Of a DNA stretch of 64,000 nt, positions 1,939 to 27,739 are shown piece by piece (within the stretch, counting starts at the first letter, position 1; every line of letters begins with the position of its first letter). The notes beneath the pieces were generated by a model. It was not told the origin of the DNA, did not search any database, and saw nothing but the letters and a program-made list of their open reading frames with translations. This DNA is from Polytrichum commune (taxonomy: Eukaryota; Streptophyta; Polytrichopsida; Polytrichales; Polytrichaceae), in NCBI GenBank assembly GCA_950295325.1, contig OX485806.1, positions 33,604,001 through 33,668,000 of the forward strand, read 5' to 3'. The position numbers and the translations under genes were made by a program.

Positions 1939-2193
1939 CTAATATGGGTGGGTGTTACTTGATGTTACCTGATCCAGAGATGCAATCTCTTCAGGCACGT
2001 CCGCATTACCGGATATCTCAGGGTGTCCTTCCTCGACGTCCTCCATAGCTTGCACTGGCACTTCCTCGTTGGTGGGTTCTACAGGGTCATCAATTACAGG
2101 TGTCTGTGTCGTTTTTTTCGGTACTTCGAGAATGTCCTCAATTATAGACGCGATAATGGTTTCAGAGCTGGGAGGCACTGCGGGAAACTCAAG
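1939..2193 (-). pseudogene. CACTA accessory protein, 3' part of last exon, severed
   Basis: Minus-strand open frame of 84 codons plus stop, acidic and proline/threonine-rich (for example EDILEVPKKTTQTP). It carries no start of its own: it continues the frame of the exon at 26915-26427, which ends in codons for SRTT. Removing 2194-26422 plus one copy of CAAG joins ...SRTT to LEFPAVPPSS with no stop or frame change. The 24-kb element therefore landed in the last exon of this gene. See the entry at 26427-30313 for the upstream exons. Confidence 0.75.
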
Positions 2194-2214
2194 TATGTGA
2201 GCGTAGAGCGGAGA
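2194..2214 (+). repeat. Left terminal inverted repeat of the 24-kb element
   Basis: TATGTGAGCG followed by T and AGAGCGGAGA. Pairs with 26402-26422 on the opposite strand with one mismatch. Confidence 0.85.
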
Positions 2215-2846
2215 ATGAAGAGCGGAAAATTTTAGATTTGTTGGATAATTTTAGGGGAAGGGTTGCCTATTTCCGTGGATTTTAGGGATAGTATGTCTTC
2301 AACTTTTTTGAAAGACACCCCATTCCCGTGGAGATATTAACCAAACCTTGTTCGAGGAACAAACGGAATCTATAGGCGTGGAAGATTGCATTTGTTATCA
2401 AACTTCTTATAGTCTAGGTTTCAAATACATTCATATTAAATTAGGGCTTACGTCATCAATTGAATACCAACATAATCATATGATGAACATATGAGTTAAC
2501 CTTAACACACACATTCAAGCATCTTGAAATGTGGTCGAGAGCCTAACCTTACCAACAACATTCAAGGTTCGGCAATGGGGCCAATAATTTAACCTTAACA
2601 CAAACATTGAAACCATTGTAACCATTCAAAGACACTCACATCCTTAGGTTGTTTCAAGTACAACTAAACTAGACAACCTCCAAAGTATATTCAACCCGTC
2701 CACCCGAACCTATCTAGAGAATTGAAATCAAACACCAACCAACTTCAATAAGGGAATGAATGACGTTTGCAATGGCCACTTAAAAATTCAAGAAATAAAC
2801 TTATAAAGTAAAATCAATACAAACAAAATCGAGGTCCGAGACGTAG
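2215..2846. other. Subterminal region and 3' flank of the methyltransferase-like gene
   Basis: Contains the shared subterminal motif CCTATTTCCGTGG at 2266-2278. The rest is AT-rich with no open frame of note. It should include the 3' untranslated region of the minus-strand gene that stops at 2847. Confidence 0.4.
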
Positions 2847-3126
2847 TCAACAACTAGGACTACCTTGTCTGTCACTATCCTCGCCCTCCTCCGCCTCTAT
2901 GTCTACATAAACCTCTACTAGTTTGTTGAAAGGTCGGATGCGACTAGGAGGTGGAGTCGGAGCTTCCGCTAAAAGATTGGCAAGCCCGGCCGCATAGCAA
3001 GGGAGCTCGAACGTCGTGGAAGGCGTTGAGAACATGTCCGTGGTAAGGACGCGATTAGAAAGTGGGGACTTGGCCTTAGGACTCGAAAACATGCGTCGAC
3101 AAAGGATTGCGTTCTCCGTGGGGTCT
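2847..3126 (-). CDS. Exon 13: C-terminal tail of the methyltransferase-like protein
   Basis: Acceptor TTCAG at 3127. Coding begins DPTENAILCRRM and ends in an acidic tail EAEEGEDSDRQGSPSC before the TGA. It lies beyond the methyltransferase core and looks like a low-complexity extension. One base completes a codon left open by exon 12. Confidence 0.6.
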
Positions 3127-6100
3127 CTGAACACCAAAGCAAAAATATTAGAAACAATATGACAAAGGAGGAAGGGTAAATGACATCAAGGCATACACGC
3201 AAAAACAAAAAAAATCGAACTTACGCACAAAGGAACCCGAATGCCCTTTTGGTCTTCTTCTGAGGCGGATCAAACATAGATGTAGACGGTGGTGGAACTG
3301 ATCGAGTAGTTAGAGCAGGCTGGGGATCGCGCATAGGGAGTAGGAGTGCATTGAAAATGATGGGGTCACTCTCAAGAGCCACAATATGCCGCTCAAGGGA
3401 GCGACATGCTACAATCGAACCACCTAAAACAAAGACATGTAGGAGGTTAGTATGGTAACTTGGGTAAAAAAAATCAAGGAAAATTCAATGTAAGGACGAT
3501 GCGGAAAGATAATGCTTACCTACACCACACTGCCAGTCCATAATAATATCGTTCTTGTCGGTGAGAATAGCGAAAAGGATAGAAAAAAAAACGTGATGCT
3601 TTTCGCGAGCACCCCTCCAAGGTACTCCATCACTGCGCATGGCCTGGCACTTCTCATCGGTGAAGGTATTCAACCAGCCATCACGTTGGAGGTGGTAATC
3701 ATACTCCTGGGCGGCCTTCGGTCGCACTTTCAGAACGGAGTTAACACGAACAAGAACTTTGATATTGAATTTCCGAGTCTGAAAAAATGAATACGATTTC
3801 ATAAGACTGAATTCGTGAAATGAAAAGCAAAACAAATGCGGGTTGGAAGATAAAGAGTTGCTTACCACTCCAGAGGGGACCACGGGGTTTTGGAGGTCCA
3901 AATCAGCCATCCCGAACCAATCTTCGGCCACGTAGAAGTCGTAAGTGTGAGCCCAATCGAAAATAAGCCTAGAAACACTTGCACTCGCACAATGGGCAAG
4001 CACAACGACACCATGATCATATAGGTTAGATTTTGCAAATGCAAAAAGACATTCATAGTATGACTCGTGGAGCTTGTTCCAAACAGGAACTTCGGTGGAG
4101 ATGTTGGGCACCGGCAAATTCTCGGGAATGTCCGCGAAAATCAAATCGAGCCCGTTGTGAATATTCGAGGAGGTGTTCACACGGGAACGACCTGCCCCAG
4201 CCTGCAAGGAAAAATTAATGAGAAAAAATGAAGAAAAAAAAAATCAATCCAAATGGAAAGGAGTATGATCAATTCCAAAGGAAAACATACAAACCTTCGC
4301 AATGAACTCTTGGATGCGCGTATATGCCGGGAGGGGACTTCCTGCAATGTCGGAATCCAGCATGAGTTGCACCATGTCCACATTTTCGATGAGGGCAAGC
4401 GTGGTAGGCGACTCCGAAGAGGTGGCACTTGTATCCAAAAGGGCGGCCTTCCTCTTGCGAGGCAAAGAGAGAAGAGAAGTGCCACTGTGAGAAGGAGTAG
4501 CATTAGATTGTGGACGAAAGGCCGAGGGACTACCGGAGGGGACAACCGATGGAGGAACCGAGGGAGCGAGAGATGGACTGTGTGGAAGGGTGGGTGGCTC
4601 AAATGGAGGCTTTGAACCACTCCGAATGACAACTTGGGAAGAGGCTTGAGTGGCAGTCTTCTTTGCTCTACCCTTTCCCCTTGGTACCTTAGGCGGAGGA
4701 GGGGGAATTTCAACGATGTCGGGCTCCTCAAAGGTGACAATGTTGTCCTCGGGAGCACTACTAACAAGGCTATCAAATAGAGGCTTCTCTTCCACTGGGA
4801 CAAATCCTGCGGAACAATCCAAGTACCATCCCGCAGCCTGCAAATGGGACTCGGGAAACTTGTTTGTTTGTTTGGTCGTGTACACGCAAAGGCTAGAAAG
4901 TACGTTCACCCAGTCCGAGAGGTAGGCGGGCAAGGAAGATAATGCCAATGCATTCTTTACAACCAACTCTCTCAGGATATAACTACAACACAAAACAAGA
5001 GAGTAAGAAAATCATGGGTTGGAGCAAGAACCGTGAAGAGGGAGAAGTGCAAAAGAGGAGGATAGATGCATTACCGATATGTAACGCGCTTGATAGCGAG
5101 AGCCCCCTCCTCGAACTCCGCGAGGTTCTCACCTTTGGCAAAGGCGATGTCCGGGTTATCGCCGAGATAAGGCTTGAAGGCTCTATCCCAAAGGACAATC
5201 CGCCAATGATCAACATACTCACGAGGGCGCAAGATAGTCTCGGATGCATCCCAATCAATGTCGACGCCGAGGTTATCTTGAAAGGTATCAATTTCAATGG
5301 AGACCTCCGTCTCTAACTGCACAGAGTGTGATGATTAGATACGAAACAAACGGAATAAAAAAAGTGAAAGAAAATGAGGTGGAGGGGGTGTATGAACCTG
5401 AGCCCAAAATGACGCCTTATGAAGCCAGTCGTTCAGAATTTTCTCCCTCAAGGACTTATCGATGGGGAACTTGTTGTCCGACCTCTCTTGAAGAGGTACG
5501 TTCCACCAATGAAGCCACTTGGCTTTTAATGAAGATTCAACAGGACACGTGACAATCTTTTGTAACTTCTCAATTGTCATGTCCGGCGAGTGAAACTCAT
5601 TAAAGTGTCGGTCAATCTTGAAACAACCAAAAGAATGAAATGACTAACTCTCGAAGAGTTGGCTAATGAAAAAATACGAAGAGCACTAGGAACACGAAAA
5701 AAATGATACCTCGTGAAAGAAGTCATCCCCATTGTCAGGGTGAGCAACGGAGATGTATTTCTCAAAGGTGCGTGACCGAATGTTCTTGATCATCCTCTCT
5801 TGGGCCTTGGTCATGACATTCCAAATATCAGTGGCATTCCTCTCTGCAATGGGTGTGGTTTCACGATATTGCATGACAGCGAGGTCTGCTTGAGCCGAAA
5901 TGTCTCTCTGCAATGGAAGACATTGTAAGCAAAAACAATCGGAATGGAAATTGAGAAGGTTGGAAGACGGGGAAGAGGGAATGCATTAGAATACCTTGTA
6001 GAGGAATTTCACGAAGACATCCGCGGTGAGGTTGTACCAAGTAGGGCGAATCTCCTTCGATTTCTCGCAAGCTTTGTAATCAGCCGGGGAAATGAGATCT

Positions 6101-9100
6101 TTGAATGTCGACAAGTCCAACCTCCCAAACGTACGAATTCGGAGGAGCTTGGCAGGAATGCTTGCCTTGACGTGGTCATTGTCGAGGTCACCTTCAAACC
6201 CTCAGCAAACTTAGACGGTGTAACCCGCTGCTGACCGGTTTACATGGAAGTTACTCCCACCAAAATTAGACCTTCATTAGGTTTCCCATTTCTGGTGAAG
6301 GTGTTTGCACTCATATAATCTTAATTTTGTGATACATAATCTTAATGCTCTTTTGAATCCTCAAGGACAAATTGACCTAAGTTTTCAAGTTTATGTCCCC
6401 CGAAATCTAATGTCAAGGTTAGGTGTTCCTAAACCTTTATTAGATTTCGCATCTTATATGGATTTAGTAACATAATCCTTTTTCTAATCAAGAGCCCTTT
6501 ATAAATCACTAAGGATAAAGTGTCCAAGTCTTTAAGTTTATATTCCCCGAAACCCTAATGTCAAGGTTAAGTGTTTTAGGGAGAACATCGTTCATACATA
6601 CAATATCTTTCATGGTATGAATGGTCGTAAAAGATTCTTATTCCATTCAAGAACATGCATTTATGAAAAGGTTACAACTCTTTTGAAAGTCAAATCATAC
6701 TCCCTCACTAAAGTTTCATCTCAAGATTTCATTCCATATCCAAGTTCTAGTATCCACATAATTTCTCATAAAGTGCTTTCATCTAATGTTTGTTCCGTAT
6801 TCAAGTAATATTCCTCATGATTTTTAGAGTTTTCTTTAAATCTTCGAGATAGAGTTTTTAACGAGTTGAAATCCTAAACTTGAGTTGATATGTTGACGGG
6901 GTCCAATTTGCCGGCCGCATTCCGATGCATCAAGTTGAAATGATTCCGTGGTTGATACTCTCCACGTCGCGTCCAACTCGTTCTCTAAGTCATGATTCTA
7001 CTTCACCACTTTAACTCAAACTATCCCTAATCAATCTCAAGTGGCTTTAGATGTCCCTTTCGGCCTTGCCTCATGTTAATCCTTTGATTATTTCCAAATT
7101 GGCCTTCAAACTAAATAATTTCCATGTTTCACCAATGTTTCAAAGTCCTTCCGAGTATTGAATTTCCAAAAATCCTAAATACATATGGATCTTTTGATCC
7201 TCTCTGTGTTGAAGAGACACTATGATTATCTATTCTTCAAGTCCGAAATCTTTCTAAGGATTTTCAATTCCTTTAAGCCTTTGAGTTCCGGGGATAATAT
7301 TTCAATCCCTAATCCCGTTGTGCCTTCAAATGCGAGGATTACAATCCTTTAAGTTTCCGAACGTGAGGATATGTTTGATCCTTTAAGTCTTCGAGAGCTA
7401 GGATATGTTTGATCCTTTAGGTCTTCAAGCTCGTCGTCCTCCACCTCAGATAGTTCGCTTTATAATGAGGTGCTTTAGGGGCCATATGTGGCCCCTTTAT
7501 ATAGGCTTGGAAATCAAAGGATTTAAAGATGTGGCGGTTAAGCCTCTAAATGTCTGTATTTACTAATTTTAGCCCTGTATATCCTCTCAGTCTAAATACA
7601 TCCCTGACAGATCTATAATTAGACTGTCACGTGCTTAAAATAGATCTACCCAAGAAGTACATACGAGCATGTCTCATCCGCTTAGATGTGTCAATTGGTA
7701 GTTATACCCCTTTCATCCATTCATCCTAAAGTTTCTTCCTCATTCATTTACGGTTAGCTATAGTCATCCAAAATTGGTCATCCATGATGTCCTTTCATCT
7801 GCCCTTCGGGTTCATGCTCTCCCGACCCCTTACTAATCCTACTCACGGTCCCACTAAGTAGTATAATGCCCTCGGCCACCTCACCTACTAGTGGCCTCCC
7901 TTCTACTAATAGTCCTTCCTTTCACTAATAGCCTATCTCTCTCACTAATGGCTAAGCTTAGCTGGAGGCCCATGTATAAAGTTACTGTTTCCACCTTCTC
8001 ACTCAAAGCCGAGCTGGCTCCTTCTCTCGGGCTGGCAGCTCCTCCCTCCACGTGGCACGTCCGACCAGCTCCTCTCCTCGCTCGGCTCCCGGTCACCTCC
8101 TTGCGTCCGCCGGCCTCCAGTCTCGTCGCTCCAACTGCTCTCCTGTTTTCGCTGTCTGTTTGGTCGAATTACTCCTTCTCCTCAGATCTCAGTCCTCCCT
8201 TTGCTCCTGTTGCAGCTTCAATGGCGAGTTCTGTGACCCTACAGTCATGCTCAGTTGACCTGGAAAAATAGATGTGTTGGAAGTCGAATAACAAGATCGA
8301 GAAAAATAAAAAAGCGAATGAAAAATGCTTACTAATTAATGTCGCTCATGACATTGAGGAAGACACCCGTGCATCCCCTGGGGTCGACCACAATACAATC
8401 CACGGATATATGCCAACTCTTCTCATTGGCATGGTTGTTGTTGATGTGCCTCCACCATGCTGAGAGTCGATGGTTTCCTTCCCATACAAAGAACATCTTG
8501 CCAGATAGATGTGCAAGATCTGGGTCATCTCTGAGTTTGACCTCGAACTCAGCATTGGCCTCTTGCCATAGAGGGCTCCAAGAGGACACAATATCAGGGG
8601 AGACCAGCATGTCCACAGAAACGTCATTGAACGACGACACATACAGTACACGATCTCCCTCACGGTACCTCATCACAAATTCACATTCTAGACGCTGCAC
8701 CTCCACCTCACTGATTGGACGGACAAGAGGTAGGCATCGCAAGCGGCATAAAGGAATAGAAAAGCGGGACTTTACAATGGGTTTAATCCGGAGGCGTTGG
8801 ATTACACCATTAGAATCCTCCTTTTGTGTTTTGCGAAGCTCGAGCTCACTAACAACCGGATCCGTGTCGGCAACTGCGATGACCGTATCTTGGCCAAGTG
8901 AAGAAGCCTTAAAAAAACACAAAAACCAAAGAGGTTTAGAACGTAAGAAATCATAATATATTGATCCAATGGGGGATTGCTAAACATGTAGACAATTGCA
9001 AAAAGCGTAAATAGTATAATCACCTCTCCTAGAACAACTTGGGCAGCATCCACATTAGCCGCGGGAGAAGCCAGTGGAACGACCTCTTCGGAATTTTGTT

Positions 9101-12100
9101 GGGACTGCCCAACTAGAGAGAAGTCGAAATCCTACCAACATGAAAGCATATTAGCAAGGCCAATACACTCCCAACCAAAAATAAATGATTTGAATTCAAA
9201 ATGATGAATTCAAATTAATGATTCGAATTCACCCGAACCCAACCTCATCCCACCAAGTCAAGCAAAAATATGAAATCTAAGTATCATGGCCGTGAGGCCT
9301 CGGATCCGAGGGCTCCTCCCTCTAGGGCCGAAACCACCTCATTTTGCCACCCTGGAATCACATGAACTGAACAAAATCCCACAAAGTCAAGAAAAATCTG
9401 AAATCAAAGTATCATGGCCATGAGGCCTCGGATCCGAGGGCTCCTCCCTCTAGGGCCGAAACCACCTAATATGGCCACCCTGGAATCACCCGAACCCAAC
9501 CTCATTCCACAAAGTCAAGCAAAATCTGATATCCTAGTGTCATGGCCATGAGGCCTCGGATCCGAGGGCTCCTCCCTCTAGGGCCGAAACCACCTCATTT
9601 CGCCACCCTGGAATCACATGAACTTAACAAAATCCCACCAAGTCAAGCAAAAATCTGAAATCTAAGTATCATGGCCGTGAGGCCTCGGATCCGAGGGCTC
9701 CTCCCTCTAGGGCCGAAACCACCTCATTTGGCCACCCTGGAATCACCCGAACCCAACCTCATCCCACAAAGTCAAGCAAAATCTGAAATCTAAGTATCAT
9801 GGCCGTGAGGCCTCGGATCCGAGGGCTCCTCCCTCTAGGGCCGAAACCACCTAATATGGCCACCCTGGAATCACCCGAACCCAACCTCATCCCACAAAGT
9901 CAAGCAAAATCTGAAATCTAAGTATCATGGCCGTGAGGCCTCGGATCCGAGGGCTCCTCCCTCTAGGGCCGAAACCACCTCATTTGGCCACCCTGGAATC
10001 ACCCGAACCCAACCTCATCCCACAAAGTCAAGCAAAATCTGAAATCCTAGTGTCATGGCCATGAGGCCTCGGATCCGAGGGGTCCTCCCTCTAGACCCGA
10101 AACCACCTCATTTGGCGACCCTGTAATCACATGAACTTAACAAAATCCCACAAAGTCAAGCAAAAATCTGAAATCTAAGTATCATGGCCGTGAGGCCTCC
10201 GATCCGAGGGCTCCTCCCTCTAGGGCCGAAACCACCTCATTTGGCCACCCTGTAATCACCCGAACCCAACCTCATCCCACAAAGTCAAGCAAAAATCTGA
10301 AATTTGAGTATCATGGCCGTGAGGCCTCGGATCCGAGGGCTCCTCCCTCTAGGGCCGAAACCACTTCATTTGTCCACCCTGGAATCACCCGAACCCAACC
10401 TCATCCCACCAAGTCAAGCAAAATCTGAAATCCTAGTGTCATGGCCATGAGGCCTCGGATCCGAGGGCTCCTCCCTCTAGGGCCGAAACCACCTCATTTG
10501 GCCACCCTGGAATCAAATGACCTTAACAAAATCCCACCAAGTCAAGCAAAAATCTGAAATCTAAGTATCATGGCCGTGAGGCCTCGGATCCGAGGGCTCC
10601 TCCCTCTAGGGCCGAAACCACCTAATATGGCCACCCTGGAATCACCCGAACCCAACCTCATCCCACAAAGTCAAGCAAAATCTGAAATCCTAGTGTCATG
10701 GCCATGAGGCCTCGGATCCGAGGGCTCCTCCCTCTAGGGCCGAAACCACCTCATTTGGCCACCCTGTAATCACATGAACTTAACAAAATCCTATAAAGTC
10801 AAGCAAAATTCTGAAATCTAAGTATCATGGCCGTGGGGCCTCGGATCCGAGGGGTCCTCCCTCTAGAGCCGAAACCACCTCATTTGGCCACCCTGTAATC
10901 ACCCGAACTCAACCTCATCCCACAAAGTCAACCAAAAATCTGAAATTTGAGTATCATGGCCGTGAGGCCTCGGATCCGAGAGCTCCTCCCTCTAGGGCCG
11001 AAACCACCTCATTCGGCCACCCTGGAATCACCCGAACCCAACCTCATCCCACCAAGTCAAGCAAAATCTGAAATCCTAGTGTCATGGCCAGGAGGCCTCG
11101 GATCCGAGGGCTCCTCCCTCTAGGGCCGAAACCACCTCATTTGGCCACCCTGTAATCACATGAACTTAACAAAATCCCACCAAGTGAAGCAAAAATCTGA
11201 AATCTAAGTATCATGGCGGTGAGGCCCCGGATTAGAGGGCTCCTCTCTCTAGGGCCGAAACCACCTCATTTGGCCACCCTGGAATCACATGAACTTAACA
11301 AAATCCCACCAAGGCAAGCAAAAATCTGAAATCTAAGTATCATGGCCGTGAGGCCTCGGATCCGAGGGCTCCTCCCTCTAGAGCTGAAACCACCTCATTT
11401 GGCCACCCTGGAATCACCCGAACCCAACCTCATCCCACCAAGTCAAGCAAAATCTGAAATCTAAGCATGATGGCCGAGAGGCCTTGGATCCGAGGGCTCC
11501 TCCCTCTAGGGCCGAAACCACCTCATTTGGCCACCCTGTAATCACATGAACTTAACAAAATCCCACAAAGTCAAGCAAAATCTGAAATCAAAGTATCATG
11601 ACCATGAGGTCTCGGATCCGAGGGCTCCTCCCTCTAGGGCCGAAACCACCTAATATGGCCACCCTGGAATCACCCGAACCCAACCTCATCCCACAAAGTC
11701 AAGCAAAATCTGAAATCCTAGTGTCATGGCCATGAGGCCTAGGATCCGAGGGCTCCTCCCTCTAGGGCCGAAACCACCTCATTTGGCCACCCTGTAATCA
11801 CATGAACTTAAAAAAATCCCACCAAGTCAAGCAAAATCTGAAATCTAAGTATCATGGCCGTGAGGCCTCGGATCCGAGGGCTCCTCCCTCTAGGGCCGAA
11901 ACCACCTAATATGGCCACCCTGGAATCACCCGAACCCAACCTCATCCCACAAAGTCAAGCAAAATCTGAAATCCTAGTGTCATGGCCATGAGGCCTCGGA
12001 TCCGAGGGCTCCTCCCTCTAGGGCCGAAACCACCTCATTTGGCCACCCTTAATCACATGAACTTAACAAAATCCTATAAAGTCAAGCAAAATTCTGAAAT

Positions 12101-18100: not shown

Positions 18101-21100
18101 AATCTGAAATCTAAGTATCATGGCCGTGAGGCCTCGGATCCGAGGGCTCCTCCCTCTAGGGCCGAAACCACCTCATTTGTCCACCCTGGAATCACCCGAA
18201 CCCAACCTCATCCCACCAAGTCAAGCAAAATCTGAAATCTAAGCATGATGGCCGAGAGGCCTCGGATCCGAGGGCTCCTCCCTCTAGGGCCGAAACCACC
18301 TCATGTGCCCACCCTGTTATCACATGAACTTAACAAAATCCCACAAAGTCAAGAAAAATATGAAATCAAAGTATCATGGCCATTAGGCCTCGGATCCGAG
18401 GGCTCCTCCCTCTAGGGCCGAAACCACCTAATATGGCCACCCTGGAATCACCCGAACCCAACCTCATCCCACAAAGTCAAGCAAAATGTGAAATCCTAGT
18501 GTCATGGCCATGAGGCCTCGGATCCAAGGGCTCCTCCCTCTAGGGCCGAAACCACCTCATTTGGCCACCCTGCAATCACATGAACTTAAAAAAATCCCAT
18601 AAAGTCAAGAAAAATCTGAAATCTAAGTATCATGGCCGTGAGGCCTCGGATCCGAGGGCTCCTCCCTCGAGGCCCGAAACCACCTCATTTGGCCACCCTG
18701 TAATCACCCAAACCCAACCTCATCCCACAAAGTCAAGCAAAATCTGAAATCTAAGTATCATGTCCGTGATGCTTCGGATCCGAGGGCTCGTCCCTCTCGG
18801 CCGAGACCACCCACTATGGCCACCCTGGAATCGCCCTAAATTCAACCTCCTCCCACAAAGTCAAGCAAAATCTGAAATCCTAGTATCATAGACATGAGGC
18901 CTCGGATCCGAGGGATCCTCCCTCCACTACTAGAAAATCATGACCAAATCAACAAAAAATCAACAGATCTTTGTCGATCTGGGCACTGCAATGACCGATT
19001 TCACTGATTTTTGAATTTTTGTAAAAATCAACAGTTTACTGCCTACATTTTTGTTGATTAGAATAGTACAATGACCAAATCAACAAAATTTTAGTAAATG
19101 TGGAATCTTTTAGGATCTATTGGAATATTGTAAAATATTTTTAATTTTTTGCAATTTATGGTCTTGTAAATGTATGGGTATGGAAATAATTACGAATTCA
19201 AAGGTGTGTAAATATTATAAATATTATATTAGTTGATAGTTAATATTTTATATATATTAATATATTAATATTAATATGTATATAATATATGTAACATATA
19301 ATATATATATGTATGTATATAATATGTATGTATATAATGTGTATATATATATTATATGTAACATATATGTATATAATATATGTAACATATATGTATATAA
19401 TATATGTAACATATATGTATATAATATATGTAACATATATGTATATAATATATGTATACAATATATGTAACATGTATGTATATAATATATAATATATAAA
19501 TATGTATACATTTACAGTAATTATATATAGTATATATTTACTGTAATTATATACAGTATATATTTACTGTAATTATATACAGTGTATATTTACTGTAATT
19601 ATATACAGTATATAATTACAGTAAATATATACAGTATATAATTACAGTAAATATATACAGTATATATACAGTATATATTTACTGTAATTATATACAGTAT
19701 ATATTTACTGTAATTATATACTGTAATTATATACTGTATATATTTACTGTAATTATATACAGTATATATTTACTGTAATTATATACTGTAATTATATACT
19801 GTATATATTTACTGTAATTATATACATCAAGTAGGTAGTAAAGAGAAAATAGTGGCCTTATTCTAGAAAGGTTTAAAACACTCCACTTATATCTTGTGTG
19901 ATGTGATGACCTAGTGGTTAAGGCACATGTGTGGGTGTCACTAGGTGCATGGTTCAATTCCCGTGGCCGACACCTTTGGCCTTGGCCTTGCCACCTATGT
20001 GAGTTGTAGGTAGTCTAAATTTTGTATGTGAGGTATAGGTTGAGGGTTACTTGGGAGGGGTTAGGAATTGCAGATCTGACATTTATTCATTTTTTATTTT
20101 TTAATGTTATATATATATATATATATATAATAATTTTTTTTAAAAAAATATTTATGTGACCATATCAACAGAAAAAATCAACAAAATTGTGTTACATCAT
20201 GTCCAGGTCAACGCGTCCTAAGTGACAACCGCGACCAACGCCTTTCTGTTGATCCGGACGCAGAATTTTCTACTAGTGCTCTCGGCCGATACCACCATAT
20301 ATGGCCACCTGGAATCACCCGAATCCCATCCACAACCCACAAACTTCAAACAAAATCTGATTTTGAGTTCTCAAACCATACCAAAACTTGGTGGACGCCA
20401 TCACCACTAGCACCCGAGTTCCCCTCCTCCGTGGCCATGGCCTTCTCCAAAGTGCTCTTCTCCAACCTCTTTCCCTCCTTCCTAGCTTGCTTTCGCCCTC
20501 TCCCTCGGTTGGCGGCCCTTTGTGGTGTGGCCGCCTTACTTCGGAGAACCCTAGATGTAGTACCTCCGACCTCCCCATTTAGGGTTTCGGCCTCACCATC
20601 CCCTTCTCCCACGGAAAATGTTTTCCTTTCATCCTTGGCCGTTTTTCCCTTAGACTCCCTCATTTCTGATCTTCTTTGAACATGGAATTGTCCCGATGGA
20701 GTTGCTCCCTCCGTTCCTAGCTCTACTGACGCGTTTTGTGCTTGTTGTTCTAACTCCGCATCTTCTTCCTCGTCGGAGCTATTTCCACTCTCCCCACTCT
20801 TCCCAACCTCCTATATTCGAGATAAACCAATGTCCATAACAATTTTCACAAATCATACAAAACGACATTTTTGAATCACATGTCCTTGTGTTCTACTATT
20901 TTACTGCTCTTCTCAATTAACTGAATTCATGGGAATTTGAAGATTGCTTACAACACTTGTAGATTCCGTCTCTTGGGGTGTTTCCTCGTGTATGTGGTCA
21001 CTTCCCAACTCCTCATCGTCTGTCATTGTATGGGCGTTACTTCCGTCCGCCTGTTCCAAAATCGGTGATAAATGAAATGGCGGAATCTCACAATCTAACC

Positions 21101-21329
21101 TCAAAGCTGGTCTACGCCTAGTCTTGATGTTCTTCCTTAAATCCTCGGGTGTCCCTCGGCCTTTGATTGGTGCCTTTGGTGTCTGTATCTTTTGTGTCCT
21201 CACCGTCTTCCTCTTCCTATCAGTGTAATGTGTAGATGTTCGCCTCCTCTTCTTCTTCTGTGATGGTTCCGCTGTCGAAGGTTGTGAATTTCCTATTTCC
21301 TTCATGTGTTCAACCCTCCCGCAATTCAC
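2847..21329 (-). CDS. Multi-exon ParB-like / N6_N4-type DNA methyltransferase-like protein (whole gene model)
   Basis: Thirteen exons on the minus strand: 21329-20952, 20810-20382, 9131-9024, 8907-8333, about 6200-5995, 5907-5710, 5616-5398, 5316-5075, 4982-4295, 4201-3866, 3778-3520, 3423-3225 and 3126-2847. All introns have GT..AG ends, and codon phase matches at every junction except exon 4 to exon 5. The product, about 1,370 residues, has a basic N-terminus with AT-hook-like RGRGRK, a ParB/sulfiredoxin-like segment in exon 4, a proline/serine-rich linker in exon 9, and in exons 10-12 a permuted beta-class amino-methyltransferase core. ParB-domain plus DNA-methylase fusions are known in bacteria and phages; finding one as a spliced gene in a plant transposon is unexpected. 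The exon 4-5 break and the altered catalytic motif mean this copy may be non-functional. Divergent from the transposase, sharing a 300-bp promoter region. Confidence 0.68.
3225..3866 (-). CDS. Exons 11-12: methyltransferase motif I region
   Basis: Exon 11 (3778-3520) ends DIIMDWQCGVG and exon 12 (3423-3225) continues GSIVACRSLERH, IVALESDP. Together this fits the SAM-binding motif I of beta-class DNA methylases, normally a D-x-F-x-G-S-G-T core followed by a glycine/arginine step and an E-x-D-P acidic loop (motif II). A conserved H before the hydrophobic helix (EKHHVFFSILFAIL) fits motif X just upstream. Motif I lying C-terminal to motif IV is the circular permutation typical of N6_N4_Mtase enzymes. 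The first Asp and the C-G-x-G-G loop are present; the usual Phe-x-Gly-Ser is changed to Gln-Cys-Gly-Val. Coordinates include the short intron between exons 10 and 11. Confidence 0.62.
3866..4201 (-). CDS. Exon 10: methyltransferase motif IV (catalytic) region
   Basis: Acceptor CTTGCAG at 4202, donor GTAAGC at 3865. The sequence NGLDLIFADIPENLP sits where amino-methyltransferases have (D/N/S)-P-P-(Y/F/W). Here the motif reads D-I-P-E, so the first proline and the aromatic residue are missing. It is followed by a helix with WNKLHESYYECLFAFA and a strand GVVVLAHCA, which match the usual order after motif IV (helix, then the motif VI strand). The changed motif suggests weak or absent catalysis in this copy, or a different substrate. 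No intact DPPY is seen anywhere else in the gene. Confidence 0.6.
4295..4982 (-). CDS. Exon 9: linker with proline/serine-rich segment
   Basis: About 230 codons, bounded by acceptor TTGTAG and donor GTTTGT, phase-matched on both sides. It starts YILRELVVKNALALSSLPAYLSD, which may be the end of the preceding helical domain, followed by a long proline/serine-rich stretch (EIPPPPPKVPRGKGRAKK) and basic LPRKRK, and ends in a short helical part (LIENVDMVQLMLDSDI). I recognise no catalytic domain. RGKGRAKK and PRKRK could act as nuclear localisation signals. Confidence 0.6.
5075..5995 (-). CDS. Exons 6-8: helical middle region of unknown function
   Basis: Exon 6 (5907-5710), exon 7 (5616-5398) and exon 8 (5316-5075) have clean GT..AG borders and keep phase. 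They encode helical segments (DLAVMQYRETTPIAERNATD, EKLQKIVTCPVESSLKAKW, WDASETILRPREYVDHW). No motif identifies a known domain. The span includes the intervening introns. Position between the ParB-like part and the methyltransferase core suggests a target-recognition or dimerisation role, but that is inference. Confidence 0.55.
5995..6200 (-). CDS. Exon 5: end of the ParB-like region, 5' border uncertain
   Basis: Clear coding from EGDLDNDHVKASIPAKLLRI through PTWYNLTADVFVKFLYK, then donor GTATTC. The only in-frame acceptor is TGCTGAG at about 6201, which does not phase with the donor of exon 4. A second frame immediately upstream (QRVTPSKFAEGLK, 6235-6195) would fit if one G had been lost near 6196, so a one-base frameshift or a missing exon is likely here. 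Confidence 0.45.
6236..8332. other. 2.1-kb spacer between exons 4 and 5, possibly an inserted LTR or promoter-bearing sequence
   Basis: No exon could be placed. On + there is a TATA-like box (CCCTTTATATAGGC, about 7492-7505) and, just upstream at 7290-7430, repeats of GGATATGTTTGATCC with CTTTAAGTCTTC. CCTAATGTCAAGGTTA-like segments recur at 6400-6570. A solo LTR would explain a TATA box in this place, but I could not find TG..CA ends with a 5-bp duplication; TGACC occurs at both borders (6232 and 8261) without proper ends. A strong-looking acceptor, TATTTTTCCAG at about 8263-8273 on the minus strand, leads directly to a stop. Confidence 0.35.
8333..8907 (-). CDS. Exon 4: ParB/sulfiredoxin-like domain
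   Basis: About 191 codons between acceptor TTTTTTAAG and donor GTAAGC. The first 60 codons are acidic or polar, then RCLPLVRPISEVEVQRLECE, a variable middle, and a strongly patterned end: LSGKMFFVWEGNHRLSAWW. In ParB/sulfiredoxin nucleases a strand is followed by G-x-H/R-R-x-x-A and a helix, with the arginine binding nucleotide; G-N-H-R-L-S-A fits. It closes with ISVDCIVVDPRGCTGVFLNVMSDIN. A TAG would be read if the donor were not used. Assignment rests on one motif and strand order, so moderate confidence. Confidence 0.5.
9024..9131 (-). CDS. Exon 3: short linker exon
   Basis: Thirty-six codons, acceptor TTGGTAG and donor GTGATT, phase 0 on both sides. Encodes DFDFSLVGQSQQNSEEVVPL, then an alanine-rich end. 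It is the first exon after the giant satellite intron. Confidence 0.5.
9228..18924. repeat. 127-128-bp satellite array, about 76 units, with GGATCC palindromes
   Basis: Unit landmarks: GAGGCCTCGGATCCGAGG, then CTCCTCCCTCTAGGGCCG, ACCACCTCATTTGGCCACCC, and one of two tails (CACCCGAACCCAACCTCATC or CACATGAACTTAACAAAATC). The two tail types often alternate, giving a dimer pattern. GATCC spacing is 128, 128 and 129 in the first units. A block at 13.52-14.02 kb recurs almost unchanged at 15.95-16.45 kb (offset 2,425 bp, 19 units), and another recurs with offset about 1,280 bp (10 units, for example 10790 and 12072). Frames open through the array are by-products of the repeat. Confidence 0.95.
18922..18924. 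repeat. Target-site duplication CTC of the mini-CACTA, left copy
   Basis: CTC here and at 20279-20281. The satellite unit is contiguous across the two flanks once the element and one CTC are removed. Confidence 0.8.
19256..19500. repeat. AT-rich microsatellite, TAACATATATGTATATAATATATG units
   Basis: About eight head-to-tail units of ATGTATATAATATATGTAAC (about 24 bp period including variants). Frames open on either strand here are repeat artefacts. Confidence 0.85.
19510..19825. repeat. Palindromic minisatellite built from TTTACTGTAATTATATACAG
   Basis: Units TTTACTGTAATTATATACAG and their inverse CTGTATATAATTACAGTAAA alternate, so the block is full of short palindromes and can form cruciforms or hairpins. 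It lies inside the mini-CACTA. Confidence 0.85.
19895..20105 (+). mobile_element. tRNA-derived SINE inside the mini-CACTA
   Basis: The head shows an RNA polymerase III A box (GACCTAGTGGTTAAGGC, about 19908) and a B box (GGTTCAATTCC, about 19952) at tRNA spacing, followed by a tRNA-unrelated body with GGGTTACTTGGGAGGGG and a T-rich end. Plant SINEs have this plan. The fold has no complete acceptor stem, so it is not a working tRNA. Insertion borders and its duplication were not resolved. Confidence 0.6.
20101..20150. repeat. (TA)n and T/A-rich tract
   Basis: TATATATATATATATATA followed by T- and A-runs after the SINE end. Confidence 0.8.
20279..20375. repeat. Last, diverged satellite unit, split by the mini-CACTA
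   Basis: Continues the unit interrupted at 18924: CTCGGCCGATACCACC, ATATGGCCACC, TGGAATCACCCGAA, AAACAAAATCTGA. It ends next to the splice donor of exon 2, so this edge unit marks the exon-proximal border of the array. Confidence 0.8.
20382..20810 (-). CDS. Exon 2: acidic then basic region with AT-hook-like motif
   Basis: Acceptor ATATAG at 20811, donor GTATGG at 20381, 143 codons, phase 0 on both sides. Begins EVGKSGESGNSSDEEEDAEL (acidic) and then has basic RVLRSKAATPQRAANRGRGR followed by KQARKEGKR. RGRGRK resembles the core of an AT-hook, which binds the minor groove of AT-rich DNA. Supports a nuclear, DNA-associated product. The link to exon 1 is phase 0. Confidence 0.55.
20952..21329 (-). 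CDS. Exon 1: basic N-terminus of the methyltransferase-like protein
   Basis: 126 codons from ATG at 21329 to donor GTAAGC. MNCGRVEHMKEIGNSQ is followed by very basic SQKKKRRRTSTHYTDRKRK, a likely nuclear localisation signal, and later by an acidic patch. A second in-frame ATG lies eight codons in. A TATA box sits 80-90 bp upstream, leaving a short leader. No known domain is seen. Confidence 0.55.
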
Positions 21330-21625
21330 ACCAACTCGTTCTATTCCCTCTCCACAACCTCACCACATCAAACTCTCACATTGGAAAGACAATGACCACT
21401 CGTTTTCTTCTCTATATATAATTGCATGACCTCCCCTTGCGAGGCGCGCTTCACTGTCTGACAGCCGTCTTTTTCATTAATTAAGGGTATCATTTTTTAG
21501 GGGTCTGACAATTTTGTCTCTTCCAGATTATCATGGGTGTATTTTTATACCTTCATCGTCATCTCCTTTATCTTTCACATGGACATTTAAATCTTTGGTC
21601 CTTTTTGTTTGCGTCCTCTTCATTC
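21330..21625. promoter_or_regulatory. Divergent promoter between methyltransferase-like gene and transposase
   Basis: The two start codons are about 297 bp apart. On the minus strand AATTATATATAGAG (about 21410-21423) is a good TATA box for the gene starting at 21329. On + the clearest candidates are ATTAATTAAGG near 21477 and TTTTTATACC near 21543. A shared promoter would co-express transposase and cargo. Confidence 0.5.
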
Positions 21626-24600
21626 ATGGCTTCATCGTCAGTTCTTCCTCCCGTCTCTGAGATGGCCGAAATTCGTTCCCATGGCATCGGTGTCCCTATT
21701 CTCTTCCCCATTGATGCACAGGGTATTGCTGTAGTCTCGGAGCTTCATCTTTGCCTTAGGTTCTCTCTTCAACCTGATACAGTATGGGTAGACCGTGAGA
21801 TCTTCGATGATACTAGATTGCTCGTTCATTCCTTCCATGAGTCCTCCAAGCTAACTGACAATGGCAATGTGTGGGAGCTTCGCGCTGGAAAGTATAGTGT
21901 TGTTGGCTGGCCAGCTTCTCAGATGGAAGAGTCAACAGAACTCCTTGCTCCTCTTCGATCTTCCACTGCTGACTTTAGCACACCTCCGGTAATAAGTGTC
22001 AAGACCGAGCCTGACGTAGACAACGTTGTAGACTTGTCTGATTCTTCGACTGAAGATGTATATGTGAGGAAGGCTGATGTTCATGATTCCCCTCCTTTGT
22101 TTCCCTCTTCTTCCTATGTAACGCCTTCTCCTTCTCGCTCTGTGCCTTTATCTCCTTCCGTACCGTCTACGTCCAAACCTCCTCCACCTATTGTTCACTG
22201 TCTTCGTCGTCTTTGTTCTATACCCGGTAGTAAGAGCGTCCTCAAGAAACTAGATTACGATCAAATCAAAATCCTAGAGGTTAATCACCTCCCCCCTCGT
22301 TTCGATGGTACCCAGTTATTTGTCCTCCCTGCACCCGAAGTCTCATCATCTCAATCCAGGGCCAAGTCCATGGACGGCATGGACAAGCAATATGATGGCC
22401 ATGTTTGGACGAAGACTCAAACCACCAACATTACAAACGACGTTGGCCTTGCATTTCGTTCCTCTACCTGTGTTGGCCATCTACAATGCCAAAACCCGAG
22501 TTGTGATTACCTTCAACGCGCCCATCGTCTCTCTGAGGTCAACGACACGGAATTTGATGGTTTCACTAAAGAGCCTTTCCCTCTCTCTGGCATTGTGCCA
22601 TCCGGATCTACTCTGGTGTGCAGGATCTGCAAACAACCTCCCAAATGCATTGCACTATGCGATGCAAAAATCTTCTACGTCCATGGGAAGGAGTCCTCCC
22701 AAAGAGCCTGCATTCATATCGGTACTCATCAACATCCAGTCAAGGTTGGAGACTGCCGAGACAGTCGGAAGCGTATCAATGCACTTCTCGAGGAGCACGT
22801 TGAGCGTACGCCTCAGGCCACGCACAGCAAGATCGTCCTTGAAGCCAACAAGGACATTGTTGGTGAGTTCCTCCTTTCTGAAAATAGTGAGAAACACCGT
22901 CTCCTCTCCTTAACAGAGCTCGAACCTGTGTTTGAGAGCTGTAGAGAGTTGAATTCCCCAAACCTTCGATCTAAGGTTACCTCTTTCAAATTTTTGCGGA
23001 GGTTCAGTGTTATGGATGGCATCGCTAAGCTCAGAGGCGTTAGCAATTGGGCCTACGTCCAAAGGAACCAATTCCCAGGACAAGGTGACGATGCTGACAA
23101 GGTGTTCGTCTTCAAGATGTCCGAGGTTGGTCCTGGAAGTGGAGTGGATTTGGTTCGTCGGATGCAACCGGGTGGGGACCTCGAGAACGCGTGGATGATG
23201 TCCGATCACGTCAAGCGGGTCAAAGGGTGGACCACCATGGCCGCTCATGTCTACGATGGGACTTATCAACGGGTTATGACCATTTCATGTTGTGATTTCC
23301 AATCGGAGGATAAGGATGCGCAAGTGCTCTTCTGGCAGAACCTCAACCACGTCATGGCCCGCCACGATATCCCACATCCAAACTTTATAGGCTTCATGGC
23401 CGACAATGCCCAAGCCAATTGGAACGCTGTTCGCATTGTGTATGGTTCAGGGGATCCCAAAGTTCCAATGGAGGGTCGTGAGCGCACTTGTTTTTTTCAT
23501 TGGAAACAGTCGCTCGAGAAACATACGAAATCGTACATAAAGCATGAGTTACAAGACCAACATAGACACCTTTGCCTTCAATATCGTAATGCTTCTTCTA
23601 TGCAAGAGGCGGAGACTAGGTACCTAGCTATCAAGGCTTGGTGGGCGTCATCGAATTGTACGAGTGAGGACGGTCTCAAGCATCTTCAGCTCTGGCTTGC
23701 TTTCTGGCACTTCCGCTACCTTCAATGGGGTGGTTTCATGGAACTGGTACATCTCCTTCATGATTCATTGTTGGTTTTTCATGGTTTCAGTTTCCTCTCT
23801 CTGTACCTATCCTAACACTTGATTTCTCCAAGCAGGAAAAGGTTTTAACCCAAGGCCAGTTGGCCGAGATGCCGTCGTGCAATCTTGCGGAGTCCGTCCA
23901 CAACAAGTGGCTTCAAGCCTCCGGCAACAAGGGTGGAGATCTATACGTGGCTACGGTGGACGACTACATTCGGGCCTTCTTACAAGTTGTTGCATACTAC
24001 CAGTTCCTTAAAGGTGGAATTGGCGGAGATGGTCCAAGCAAAGAAGAACTAAAGCTCAGGGGTGCTCAACGTCGAGCTCAGCGTACTGGCGACCCCACGG
24101 TGTTGCAGAAGGTCTTGCTTGATATGCCCGGTGGGGAAGAGTTTTGCACTCGCGATCCCCACCTTGAGGGCGCCGAGGTGTTTGGATCGCAGAAGCGAAG
24201 ACCAGACACTCTAATTGGTGATGATGGCGAGACCCACCGTCCCGATACCGTGAACTTCTCTCGCCCTCCCCCCGGTAAGCGAGTCACTCGCTCTCAACCT
24301 GAAACACTGCCTACTATCATTGAGGAGTCTTCCCCCTCTGTACAAGAGGTTCAAGTGCCTTCACCTGCAGGACTTGGTTTCCAGCGTGTCACCGCCGTGC
24401 AAGAAACCAAAGTAGATGTCTCTCTTTGGCATATTGCCTGCATACCCTATACCTCTGGGAAGTCCTGTTGGGCTAATCATGCGGGCACGAAAAAAAAATG
24501 CACCGCAAGAATCGTCACCAATAACAAGAGCGTCCCTGCGCCCACCTACACCGGTATATGGCATCATTACAAACTCCAATCTATGAAGCGCACAGACTTT

Positions 24601-25293
24601 GTCTTTTGCCCAGATGACATCGAGCGTTGCGTCAAAGGCCCTCGTCGGAAATGAGTCATGCCGTTCTCTACTGATGAGCAGAAGCCACCTATTCCCCCAA
24701 TCTGGCCCGTGAAGATTGGTACCAACCTCACCCGCTCGGAGATCTTCGCGCTTGAGAACGCAGGTTTTCAACTCCCACCAAAGGAGCGCATCACACCGTC
24801 TCGACTCTTCACCAACTCTGCGACCCCGCTGGATATGTCTCGAATCCGTGTTCCAGAAAACCCCGACTTTATCCCTACCACAAGATTGTCCAAGCTTGTT
24901 CGGCGATCCAGAAGCGCACCTTCGGCAAAGCAGAGGCAGATGGTGGCCTCTGCTGAAGCTATGCATGCAACTGTTATGAAGTTAACTATGATCCCTCAAC
25001 CGGGATTTGGTTGCATTATCACACTGCAGTCCAAATCAGAACCCCAACCATCCATCTACCAAGTGACAGTGAGTTCTCTTCCAGAGTGCAACTGCGCCTA
25101 CTTCTTGGATATGATTTCCAAGTTCGGCCGCAAACGAAATTCTTATATGAATTGTAAGCATTTGTATTACATCTTCGTCAAGGTTTCTAATTTGGATGCG
25201 GAAGTGAATTTGTTCATACACGTCCCGACATTTAGTTTCAATGAGGTCAAACTCATCATGGAGGGAGGTCTCTTGACTCAATCTACTTCCTAG
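21626..25293 (+). pseudogene. MULE-like DDE transposase with SWIM zinc finger, one in-frame stop
   Basis: Exon 1 to 23746, intron 23747-23835 (GTACAT..AGCAG), exon 2 from 23836. The start is taken at 21626 (MASSSVLPPVSE); an upstream in-frame ATG at 21533 adds 31 hydrophobic residues. A zinc-binding region has CQNPSC and VCRICKQPPKC (about 22487-22660). The catalytic triad fits Asp in YDGTY (about 23255), Asp in MADNAQ (about 23402) and Glu in CNLAESVHNKW (about 23890), with C-x2-H-W after the second Asp, as in Mutator-like transposases. After a TGA at 24652-24654 the same frame runs 211 more codons with a SWIM finger C-x-C-x19-C-x-H (25087-25161). The stop separates catalysis from SWIM; a C-to-T change of an arginine codon would explain it. 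Confidence 0.75.
24652..24654 (+). other. In-frame TGA inside the transposase gene
   Basis: Codons GGA-AA before and GTC-ATG after are in the same frame as both halves. CGA to TGA by deamination of a methylated CpG is the simplest origin. Alternatives are a short unrecognised intron or a truncated but functional product. Confidence 0.7.
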
Positions 25294-25454
25294 AATTCCT
25301 CTCAACCTAGCACTACATTGGGATATGATATATGTGTCAATTTCTGGACCTCTTGTGAAGCAATAATTGATTGATATAATAAAGATATAATCTCAATGAT
25401 TATGTTTATTCCATTCAAAGTATCGTATTACAATGTATCATTTGTCTATCAACT
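25294..25454. other. Shared 3' region of convergent genes
   Basis: AT-rich, with AATAATTG and ATAATAAAG on +, usable as polyadenylation signals for the transposase. It separates the transposase stop from the stop of the minus-strand small gene by about 160 bp. Confidence 0.45.
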
Positions 25455-25922
25455 CTATTTTCGTTTTGCATACTTCTTGGATGAATCCGAGGGAGGTGGA
25501 CCCGGTCGAAGCAAATCCATATAAGAAATTGTCTTATCTCTCTTTCGATCCTTCAACGGAAGATGATGCGGCGGCAAGGCTCTCATCCGTTTACGAAATG
25601 AAATAGACTTCGAAGATTCCCCTTCCACCTTCACCTCCTCCTCCGTTTCGTTCGATTTGTCTTCATCCAAATCAGCGTCATTCTCGGGCACATCTTCCTG
25701 CCTCTTTTCTTTTTTCTCACGTTGTTTTTGTTCCTCCCGCATCCTCCACCTCCATGCTTGTGTAGACTGCGAAAATGGAGTTAGGTCGTAGTCATCACTA
25801 CTTCGATTTCCAGTAGCAAACGAAAATTCCGGCGATAAATTAACCGGAATATGAGGATCTGCTAGACTTCTAATTTCCTTATCCCATCCTAATCCAGCAA
25901 ACATGTCTTTTTCATCACCCAT
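25455..25922 (-). CDS. Small charged protein, third gene of the 24-kb element
   Basis: Single-exon frame of 155 codons from MGDEKDMFAGLGWDKEIRSL. An upstream in-frame ATG at 25964 overlaps the TATA box and is unlikely. The middle is very charged and probably coiled-coil (RMREEQKQREKKEKRQED, NETEEEVKVEGESS), and the C-terminus is basic with proline (RDKTISYMDLLRPGPPPSD, KKYAKRK). I recognise no domain. It sits between the transposase (convergent, about 160 bp) and the right end. Small second proteins of MULEs (such as MURB) assist or regulate transposition, so an accessory role is possible but unproven. Confidence 0.55.
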   Translation of the reverse strand: MGDEKDMFAGLGWDKEIRSLADPHIPVNLSPEFSFATGNRSSDDYDLTPFSQSTQAWRWRMREEQKQREKKEKRQEDVPENDADLDEDKSNETEEEVKVEGESSKSISFRKRMRALPPHHLPLKDRKRDKTISYMDLLRPGPPPSDSSKKYAKRK

Positions 25923-25962
25923 TGTATGCAAGTGTATATACAATGATGTTGGGTATGAGTCC

Positions 25963-25973
25963 AATATATAATC
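25963..25973 (-). promoter_or_regulatory. TATA box of the small charged-protein gene
   Basis: Minus strand AGATTATATATTGG, about 45 bp upstream of ATG 25922. A second TATATACAC lies closer, at 25933-25940. Confidence 0.5.
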
Positions 25974-25974
25974 T

Positions 25975-26401
25975 ATTCGGCCACAAACGATAATTGCTAA
26001 AGTCCAAGCTATAGAGTAGACTCACATATAAGACAAAGAGAAAAGTGATGAATAAAAACGAAGGAAGTTGATTATTTTGATTCCTTTGTATTTTGATTGA
26101 TTCATTCTTCAATTATACCAATCTCAGAAAATCCATTTTCATTGATTTTTTCTTGTAATCATCCATGATTTTAACAATTCAACCACCTCGCGGTCTCCAA
26201 ACTTAGTGAGACCATTTCAATTTCAGGGCATTTTTGTTTATTTTATGACCTATAATTCCCACGGAAATAGGTCCAATTTTTTTACTAAGTTTGGCAGATT
26301 CTGGAATATTCCAGGCATATTCTTGTCTGTTTTTGAAACATTCCTATTTTTATCGGGAAGGTTTGCTATTTTTATTTCATCTACGCTCTCTGCTCTCCAA
26401 A
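25975..26401. other. Right subterminal region of the 24-kb element
   Basis: AT-rich, no convincing gene. Contains the inverted copy of the subterminal motif (CCACGGAAATAGG, 26259-26271). A minus-strand frame runs through here only because it reads in from the interrupted CACTA exon. Confidence 0.5.
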
Positions 26402-26422
26402 TCTCCGCTCTCCGCTCACATA
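26402..26422 (-). repeat. Right terminal inverted repeat of the 24-kb element
   Basis: Minus strand TATGTGAGCG, G, AGAGCGGAGA. Followed outward by CAAG (26423-26426), matching CAAG at 2190-2193. Confidence 0.85.
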
Positions 26423-27739
26423 CAAGTGTCGTCCGAGACACTGCTTCTACGTCTGTGACTGCATCAATCGCAGCATCCTCGGAGACGTCGCTCGGGACAG
26501 GAATCGCGGACGCCACACGCATGTCCGCACCGCCCACCGCGCTGATAACTGGGGTGGGAGCTTGTTTCTGTGCCACCATCACCAGATCCTCCATCGTTGA
26601 CGTCAATGCCGAAATATCGAGCATCTTCGCAGACGATGAAGGCTCCGTCATGCTATCAATGTTAGTCGGATGTTTCTGACTCTGATTCTGAAGAATCATT
26701 CGCATCATGTCCTCCATGCGCTTGTTTGAGGCTGCCACATTCTCTCCAAGGCGTGTGACGCTGCCCTCCAAATCCGTCACTCGAGTGCGCATCGACTCCA
26801 TTTCCGAGCCATGATGGGGACGCGCTCGGCGCTTTTCCTCCTGTATGCGTTGGTACTCTTTGGCAACCTCGGCGTCAATCTCCGCATCGTACGGTGCCTT
26901 GTTCTTCAACATCGCCTGCATGGCACATTAAAGTCATTACGGATGAAAGGGGACGTCGACAACAATGCGTTCCAACAGGTGCAGGTCGCACACTTTGTCA
27001 CAATGCCCGCACATCTCCCAGTCTGCATGCCGGACACACACGTCAATGCCATCACATTCACTTCACAAGCGACCAACACTGGGTGCCCACACTACACCCA
27101 CGTTAGAAAGGGTACAAACCAGTATGTTACCACAAGAGAGAAAATTGATATCATCGACGTCCATATGGACGTCGATAGCGATTGTCGAGCGTTTCAGTAC
27201 ACATGTCCACAAAAACGCACGGACGTCCTGTTCGGCTCCACTCACAGATTGTCAGCATGACACTCTGTGCTAAATACATGTCCACCCTGACGTCAGCGAG
27301 AATGTCATGCCTGCCTACATAGACATACACCCTGTTGCTCATGTCCAGAATGATGTTTGGTTGCGCTTAAAATGTCAGATTCGGGTTTCACATCGCAAAT
27401 TAACGCGACACATGCATGCCAAAAAATTGATGTGCAAACCTTACCTGTGTATAGGCGTTTGAATAATCGCTTCCTCTCGTGCCGTGGCTGGCCTTCCCAT
27501 CCCGTCGTGGGATCCAGGTCCTTTGCATACTTCTTGATGTCGGCGCACAGGACAGCCTTCATGGCGCCAAAAGGCTGCCCTTGCGCATCCAGCTCCACAC
27601 GTTTCTTCAAGGCAGTGCTCCCCCCTCCCTTACGTGTTGGTAGTGGATGTGATGTTTCAATCCCATCACTGTTCTCCTGATCGCCGTCTGATTCCGTGCC
27701 CGAGTTGGTTGCGTATCCTCGGCTACAACAACCACATTC

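Follow-up and report, generated by a model that had tools for sequence, protein, structure and literature searches.

Why would a plant DNA transposon keep, divergently beside its transposase gene, a spliced gene that joins a ParB-like part to a DNA methyltransferase-like part? The question is posed by a 24-kb element of Polytrichum commune within a stretch of 64,000 nucleotides (contig OX485806.1, positions 33,604,001 to 33,668,000), here called the window, in whose numbering coordinates are given unless a locus is named (Table 1). The element belongs to a mobile family in which this gene pair is conserved, and tandem arrays of a palindrome, missed when the window was read from its sequence alone, lie in an intron of the fused gene, called here ParB-MTase (MTase, methyltransferase). 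We infer, with confidence a little better than even, that this Mutator-like family carries its own ParB/palindrome system of self-recognition, with an anti-silencing role like that of VANC. The fused protein, as a dimer, would bind the palindromes in copies of its own family, would perhaps load there and then spread as ParB does from parS, and once bound would prevent host silencing from shutting the element down, as VANC does for VANDAL.

The palindrome has the core CTCGGATCCGAG, measures 22–24 bp overall and lies in the intron upstream of the ParB exon. In the window's array a 14-bp stretch, CCTCGGATCCGAGG, is exact in 61 of the 76 units; its mean conservation is 98.4% versus 92.4% for the whole unit, and only one of 115 stretches scores higher. 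Six complete transposase loci were fetched from the same genome and read together with the window copy. Each of the six holds the palindrome 17–47 times; exact cores number 17–65 per element over the seven, that is, 247 inside the elements (123,339 bp) versus none in 123,662 bp outside. The array of c1_12.9 is of the window's 128-bp unit type, and five elements have unit lengths of 127, 307, 96 and 487 bp among others, partly interrelated, which carry the longer GAGGCCTCGGATCCGAGGCCTC. The loci L029, L030 and L031, whose matched stretches are each 36–65% identical to the window protein, have units of 138–139 bp with GACCCTCTCGGATCCGAGAGGGTC; L035 reads GACCCTCTCGG-AA-CCGAGAGGGTC and L033 has the 22-bp form. 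Arrays were found in 12 of 13 suitable loci, L032 being uncounted since its sequence piece came from the wrong side of the locus.

The palindrome differs between subfamilies in a patterned way. When three unit groups were aligned on the site, the 12-bp core was common to them, and the flanks agreed at 18/90, 25/90 and 21/90 positions versus about 22 expected by chance. The outer arms of the GAGGC and GACCC groups share 0–1 of 10 positions with palindromic symmetry kept. As in the case of VANC, arrays of a family-specific motif lie in non-coding DNA and vary together with the protein, and the palindromes look like candidate binding sites of the ParB-MTase protein. The centre is GGATCC in most arrays and GGAACC in subfamily C4_9.2, for which reason GATC was rejected as a common target.

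Other repeats occur in the same gene. A second palindrome array is present in another intron in L031 (6822–8161 of that locus), between the exon 8 and exon 9 matches. The window intron that holds the array also has, at 19274–19830, short AT-rich tandem repeats that are strongly self-complementary. In L009, which includes a distant family, a 34-fold TCTCAAC heptad repeat stands between the ParB- and MTase-matching parts (7770–8002), and a 127-bp repeat contains GACCCCTGCG-TTGG-CGCAGGGGTC in one copy.

The sequence-only reading had placed a ParB/sulfiredoxin (Srx) fold and a beta-class methyltransferase-like domain in one protein, and this is borne out by a fold prediction for the former and a match in the S-adenosylmethionine (AdoMet) region for the latter. 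The exon-4 domain is predicted to fold like ParB/sulfiredoxin, its model matching solved members by fold; among the viral matches of the model, the sixth is to a Mycobacterium phage protein annotated as 'DNA methylase'. The prediction used an alignment of 73 rows, as that from a single sequence was poor (pLDDT, the predicted local distance difference test score, 35.8). Two alignment searches at E up to 10 returned 174 and 269 proteins, 120 of each being listed; 72 of the best 120 listed homologues entered the ParB alignment and 23 of the best 120 the MTase alignment. Row-by-row profile scanning of the ParB part gave chance-level matches only, including DUF6551 (best 0.048) in 3 of 73 rows and DUF1015 (0.04) in 1 of 73. 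A protein search with the whole gene model found no match, scans of viral contigs no relatives, and Pfam scans of single exons nothing useful.

The methyltransferase-like domain matches DpnA in the Protein Data Bank (PDB) at E 0.0023 with a single sequence and 2e-4 with a six-row profile. The match is confined to some 50 residues around the AdoMet motif, and motif I stands C-terminally, as it should in the beta class. PF01555, with which a comparison of exons 10–12 had been suggested, reached no better than 0.11, below its cut-off, with 2 of the 6 rows matching; for CcrM of NCBIfam the best value was 0.0023, likewise with 2 of the 6 rows. An MTase alignment that still contained intron sequence yielded chance matches only against PDB. 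The catalytic motif of DNA amino-methyltransferases is [DNS]PP[YFW]. Here the motif-IV site reads FADIPENL, FADVPENL, IVDAPEDL, IADAPSNL and similar, that is, D-[IVA]-P-[EKS] with the exceptions DVSK (C4_49.2), NVPE (P0008) and DIFR (P0120), and DPPY is absent from all rows covering the site. The domain is therefore not filed as a DNA amino-methyltransferase. It may bind AdoMet; a role in binding AdoMet or DNA, or as an enzyme of atypical kind, is more likely than that of a normal DNA amino-methylase.

Comparison of coding sequences indicates that the ParB-MTase gene is under purifying selection. Between the window and c3_8.7, the ratio of nonsynonymous to synonymous substitution rates (dN/dS) is 0.101 in exon 4, 0.098 in exons 5–8 and 0.182 in exons 10–12, and 0.267 and 0.058 in the two transposase exons. 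The corresponding dS is about 1.0 in exons 4–8, 0.40 in exons 10–12 and 0.2 in the transposase; this inequality hints at a possible exchange of modules between subfamilies. In several distant pairs dS is saturated.

A 13-exon minus-strand gene, as modelled earlier, holds for the family and fails for the window copy, in which a 2,064-bp insertion, possibly a solo long terminal repeat (LTR), splits exon 5. An odd splice at the intron-4 region was considered and rejected, as sibling copies show the insertion inside exon 5. The window's own copy is broken, both by this insertion and by an in-frame stop in the transposase at a position where the frame is open in all six other complete copies. Two of the seven complete elements, c4_30.6 and c1_34.5, are stop-free in every matched exon stretch; the other five, the window included, have at least one lesion, and in c1_12.9 exon 2 is unmatched and exon 1 matched only in part.

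The pairing of the two genes was followed through the genome (408 Mb, 64 contigs). The transposase is present at 58 loci at least, the number scored among 2,445 first-look candidates after 4 of 62 rows were dropped as second pieces. For the MTase exons, 132 listed rows were used and 18 dropped as second pieces of listed loci, one of which, C2:24040483, may be a separate locus. An MTase-exon match lies upstream on the opposite strand within 45 kb at no fewer than 44 of the 58 transposase loci (38 within 20.5 kb), versus 0.455 on average and never more than 4 in 1,000 trials of random placement, for which the sizes of contigs C5–C7 were estimates. On reading, the gene was also found at a 45th locus, C1:28027168, which brings the divergently upstream ParB/methylase gene to at least 45 of the 58 listed loci, the remaining 13 being unread. 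Eighty-six of the 132 MTase loci are without a listed transposase neighbour, and carry little weight because only 58 transposase loci were scored. The same divergent pair occurs in the distant family adjoining the copy in L009, at identities of 54% and 78% over two matched stretches of the transposase and 34% and 30% for ParB-MTase. The multi-copy family with shared ends and genes that the sequence-only reading had expected is thus present, and its ends do not consistently lack the methyltransferase-like gene. Homologues of exon 4 (P0181–P0199, 59–65% identical) lie on contigs of 123–727 kb in a protein database, and the element family probably extends beyond this genome.

The limits of the element had to be redrawn. 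The inverted ends reported before, 20/21 at 2194–2214 and 26402–26422, hold (no match in 100 shuffles). The CAAG flanking them, which had been taken for the target-site duplication, belongs to the element in all seven copies. On the left GGGAAACTCAAG precedes TATGTGAGCG, on the right CAAGTGTCGTCC follows CGCTCACATA, and the flanks diverge beyond; since GGGAAACTCAAG and CAAGTGTCGTCC are constant outside the inverted repeats, CAAG is internal and the boundaries are 2182 and 26434. By eye, the true 10-bp duplication is perfect in four of the seven copies (ACTCACTCCC, CCCACCCGAG, TCAAATGAAC, TGGCCAGTTG), has one mismatch in the window (GAGGCACTGC/GAGACACTGC) and in c2_54.2, and was not found in c1_28.0. 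Mutator-like elements make duplications of 8–11 bp, according to the cited passage of PMC6446971; the length here is 10 bp in six of seven copies, and the terminal repeats are inverted (26/34; inner 20/21). On these features of sequence the element is a large Mutator-like DNA transposon, its affinity being read from the duplication length and from transposase motifs seen by eye. These motifs are D, D, CxxH and E; the transposase has no Pfam hit, including none to a DDE profile of Mutator-like elements (MULEs). GAGCGGA-type heptads stand at 2199–2213 and 26381–26417, each end of the seven copies having 2–7 units; they are unlike the internal palindrome and may be transposase sites. The divergent transposase and spliced gene are present within the element as described before, and every one of the seven complete copies has a match to the third small gene.

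The element is nested inside another transposon, within a gene that runs opposite to tnp2. Removing it at the true boundaries with one duplication kept reopens the interrupted frame for 241 codons across the site. The interruption of a frame was thus rightly seen, and what had been called the host gene belongs to a CACTA-type element. The genes of that element lie at 30891–35175 (tnp2, PF02992, E 2.8e-63; a weak DUF4216, E 5.6e-6, below its cut-off; Pfam), and an end-like sequence, CACTATAAGAAAAT, is found at 370–383. Genes of these kinds point to a plant host.

Table 1. Features of the element in window coordinates.
Feature	Position	Strand	Remark
Whole element	2182..26434		24,253 bp; ends GGGAAACTCAAG...CAAGTGTCGTCC in 7/7 copies read
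Target-site duplication, left copy	2172..2181		GAGGCACTGC, 10 bp
Left terminal repeat	2182..2215	+	26/34 positions match right end
ParB-MTase exon 13 and stop	2847..3126	-	gene model
ParB-MTase exons 10-12	3225..4201 (3866-4201, 3520-3778, 3225-3423)	-	beta-class methyltransferase-like; motif IV FADIPENL, AdoMet motif MDWQCGVGGS
ParB-MTase exons 6-9	4295..5907 (5710-5907, 5398-5616, 5075-5316, 4295-4982)	-	gene model
ParB-MTase exon 5, remainder	5995..6179	-	sibling copies
Insertion in exon 5	6180..8243		2,064 bp; TG...CA ends; 5-bp repeat ATGAC at borders; solo-LTR-like
ParB-MTase exon 5, first 16 bp	8244..8259	-	severed from remainder by insertion
ParB-MTase exon 4	8333..8907	-	predicted ParB/Srx-fold domain; EGNHRLSAW motif
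ParB-MTase exon 3	9024..9131	-	gene model
Tandem array	9229..18924		128-bp unit x 76; intron between exons 2 and 3; GAGGCCTCGGATCCGAGG-type palindrome per unit
ParB-MTase exon 2	20382..20810	-	gene model
ParB-MTase exon 1	20952..21305	-	gene model
Transposase exon 1	21626..23746	+	start codon uncertain; at least 58 loci in genome
Transposase exon 2	23836..24651	+	closed by in-frame stop 24652-24654 in window copy
Transposase frame continuation	24655..25293	+	SWIM-like CxC...CxH by eye
Third small gene	25455..25922	-	charged protein; start inferred; 87-93% identical in six other complete copies
Right terminal repeat	26401..26434	-	pairs with left end, 26/34 (inner 20/21)
Target-site duplication, right copy	26435..26444		GAGACACTGC, 1 mismatch to left copy

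Several points weigh against self-recognition through the palindromes. The aligned sites were chosen by similarity, which inflates their conservation over that of the flanks, and sites within one array are non-independent through concerted evolution. L034 is without an array in its 6-kb piece, where exons 3–5 are unmatched too; the arrays of L033 and L035 are linked to the gene by coordinates only, with no ParB exon in the 6-kb piece; and the inverted repeat of L009 is weak, its consensus being reached by 43 of 200 shuffles. The ParB part has no significant profile match in Pfam, PHROGs or PDB, and no Foldseek match of its model in PDB reaches E 0.001. In closer pairs dN/dS ranges over 0.19–1.18, some on few changes (window and c1_12.9, 0.37–1.08; the L029–L031 group, 0.19–0.58; c4_30.6 and c1_28.0, 0.35–1.18 on very few changes). 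Another possibility is that the palindromes serve the transposase or the structure of the DNA. They would then be sites of the transposase or of a host factor, or structural elements in cruciform formation, recombination or replication, with ParB-MTase acting elsewhere. The arrays are indeed prone to expansion and the palindromes form hairpins, but the GAGCGGA heptads occupy the termini, where transposase binding is expected, and the arrays sit in the gene's own intron with arms that vary between subfamilies along with the gene; we consider this explanation rather unlikely.

Slightly less likely still is that the fused protein is catalytically active as a DNA amino-methylase, guided by its ParB part to the palindromes and marking element DNA as N6-methyladenine (m6A) or N4-methylcytosine (m4C). 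DpnA, the best PDB match, is a GATC-type adenine methylase; AdoMet motif I is conserved and GGATCC stands at the centre of most arrays. Active methylation is also suggested for algal ParB-methyltransferase proteins in the cited passages of PMC12477816. Set against this are the altered motif IV, never DPPY, and the GATC-free centre of C4_9.2, which make active methylation, as the sequence-only reading had proposed it, unsupported and doubtful. Capture in the manner of a Pack-MULE would make the gene mere passenger DNA. Captured genes are frequent in Mutator-like elements (PMC6446971, in part), but the divergent pairing extends to the family 54% identical in transposase, besides the listed loci, and dN/dS of 0.10–0.18 between subfamilies speaks for constraint; we regard capture as highly improbable. 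A tentative possibility, less likely than not, is self-labelling of the ParB/parS kind, in which the ParB-fold protein, its methyltransferase domain repurposed, would load at subfamily-specific arrays and spread along the element, defeating silencing or organising the copies, with protein and site co-evolving; a ParB-type DNA clamp would then operate in a eukaryotic nucleus. Self-recognition with a VANC-like anti-silencing role is the reading that we prefer.

The proposed system can be compared with several known ones. In bacteria, parS consists of multiple palindromic sites close to parB, and here too a ParB fold goes with multiple palindromic sites near a parB-like gene; the element protein differs in having GNHR where bacterial ParB has GERR and in its methyltransferase-like C-terminus, and no ParA gene was noticed in the element, no search for ParA having been made. 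With the beta-class enzymes DpnA and CcrM it shares the AdoMet motif region in its C-terminal place, but is without DPPY. Fusions of ParB with an N6_N4 methyltransferase in phages join the same two kinds of domain (PMC12704722, cited passages), whereas the gene here is eukaryotic and spliced, with about 500 residues between the domains and a degenerate catalytic motif. The closest arrangement in the passages drawn on is Sola1-1_Ec32 of Ectocarpus, a DNA transposon of 21.5 kb in which a 1104-aa protein with ParB-like and N4/N6 DNA methyltransferase parts is encoded opposite the transposase (PMC12477816), similar green and red algal transposon proteins being known by citation there. The same layout on the strand opposite the transposase is found here, in a Mutator-like rather than a Sola1 element, with a 10-bp duplication, a changed catalytic motif and palindrome arrays that diverge along with the gene. 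Transposon-borne ParB-methylases are thus known from algae; new are the type of element, the change in the catalytic site and the arrays of palindromes. The main text of PMC12477816 contains neither 'palindrom' nor 'binding site', and no report of palindrome arrays beside ParB-methylase genes was found in the open-access listings searched, which is weak evidence of absence.

The nearest working model for how the element may recognize itself is, by analogy, VANC. VANDAL of Arabidopsis is likewise a Mutator-type element with an accessory protein, and VANC motifs of 8–9 bp build up in tandem and evolve together with the protein, according to the cited passages of PMC5735166. The motifs quoted there are non-palindromic, whereas here the palindromes have 22–24 bp and the protein is ParB/methyltransferase-like; Pfam scans indicated no kinship with VANC, which itself was not compared. 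In the Polytrichum family the probable target can be read from the DNA and differs between subfamilies, and the passages of PMC12477816 name no target sites. If the proposal is true, the family would provide a second, independent case of sequence-specific self-recognition by a transposable element beside VANC, and ParB biology would extend to a eukaryotic nucleus.

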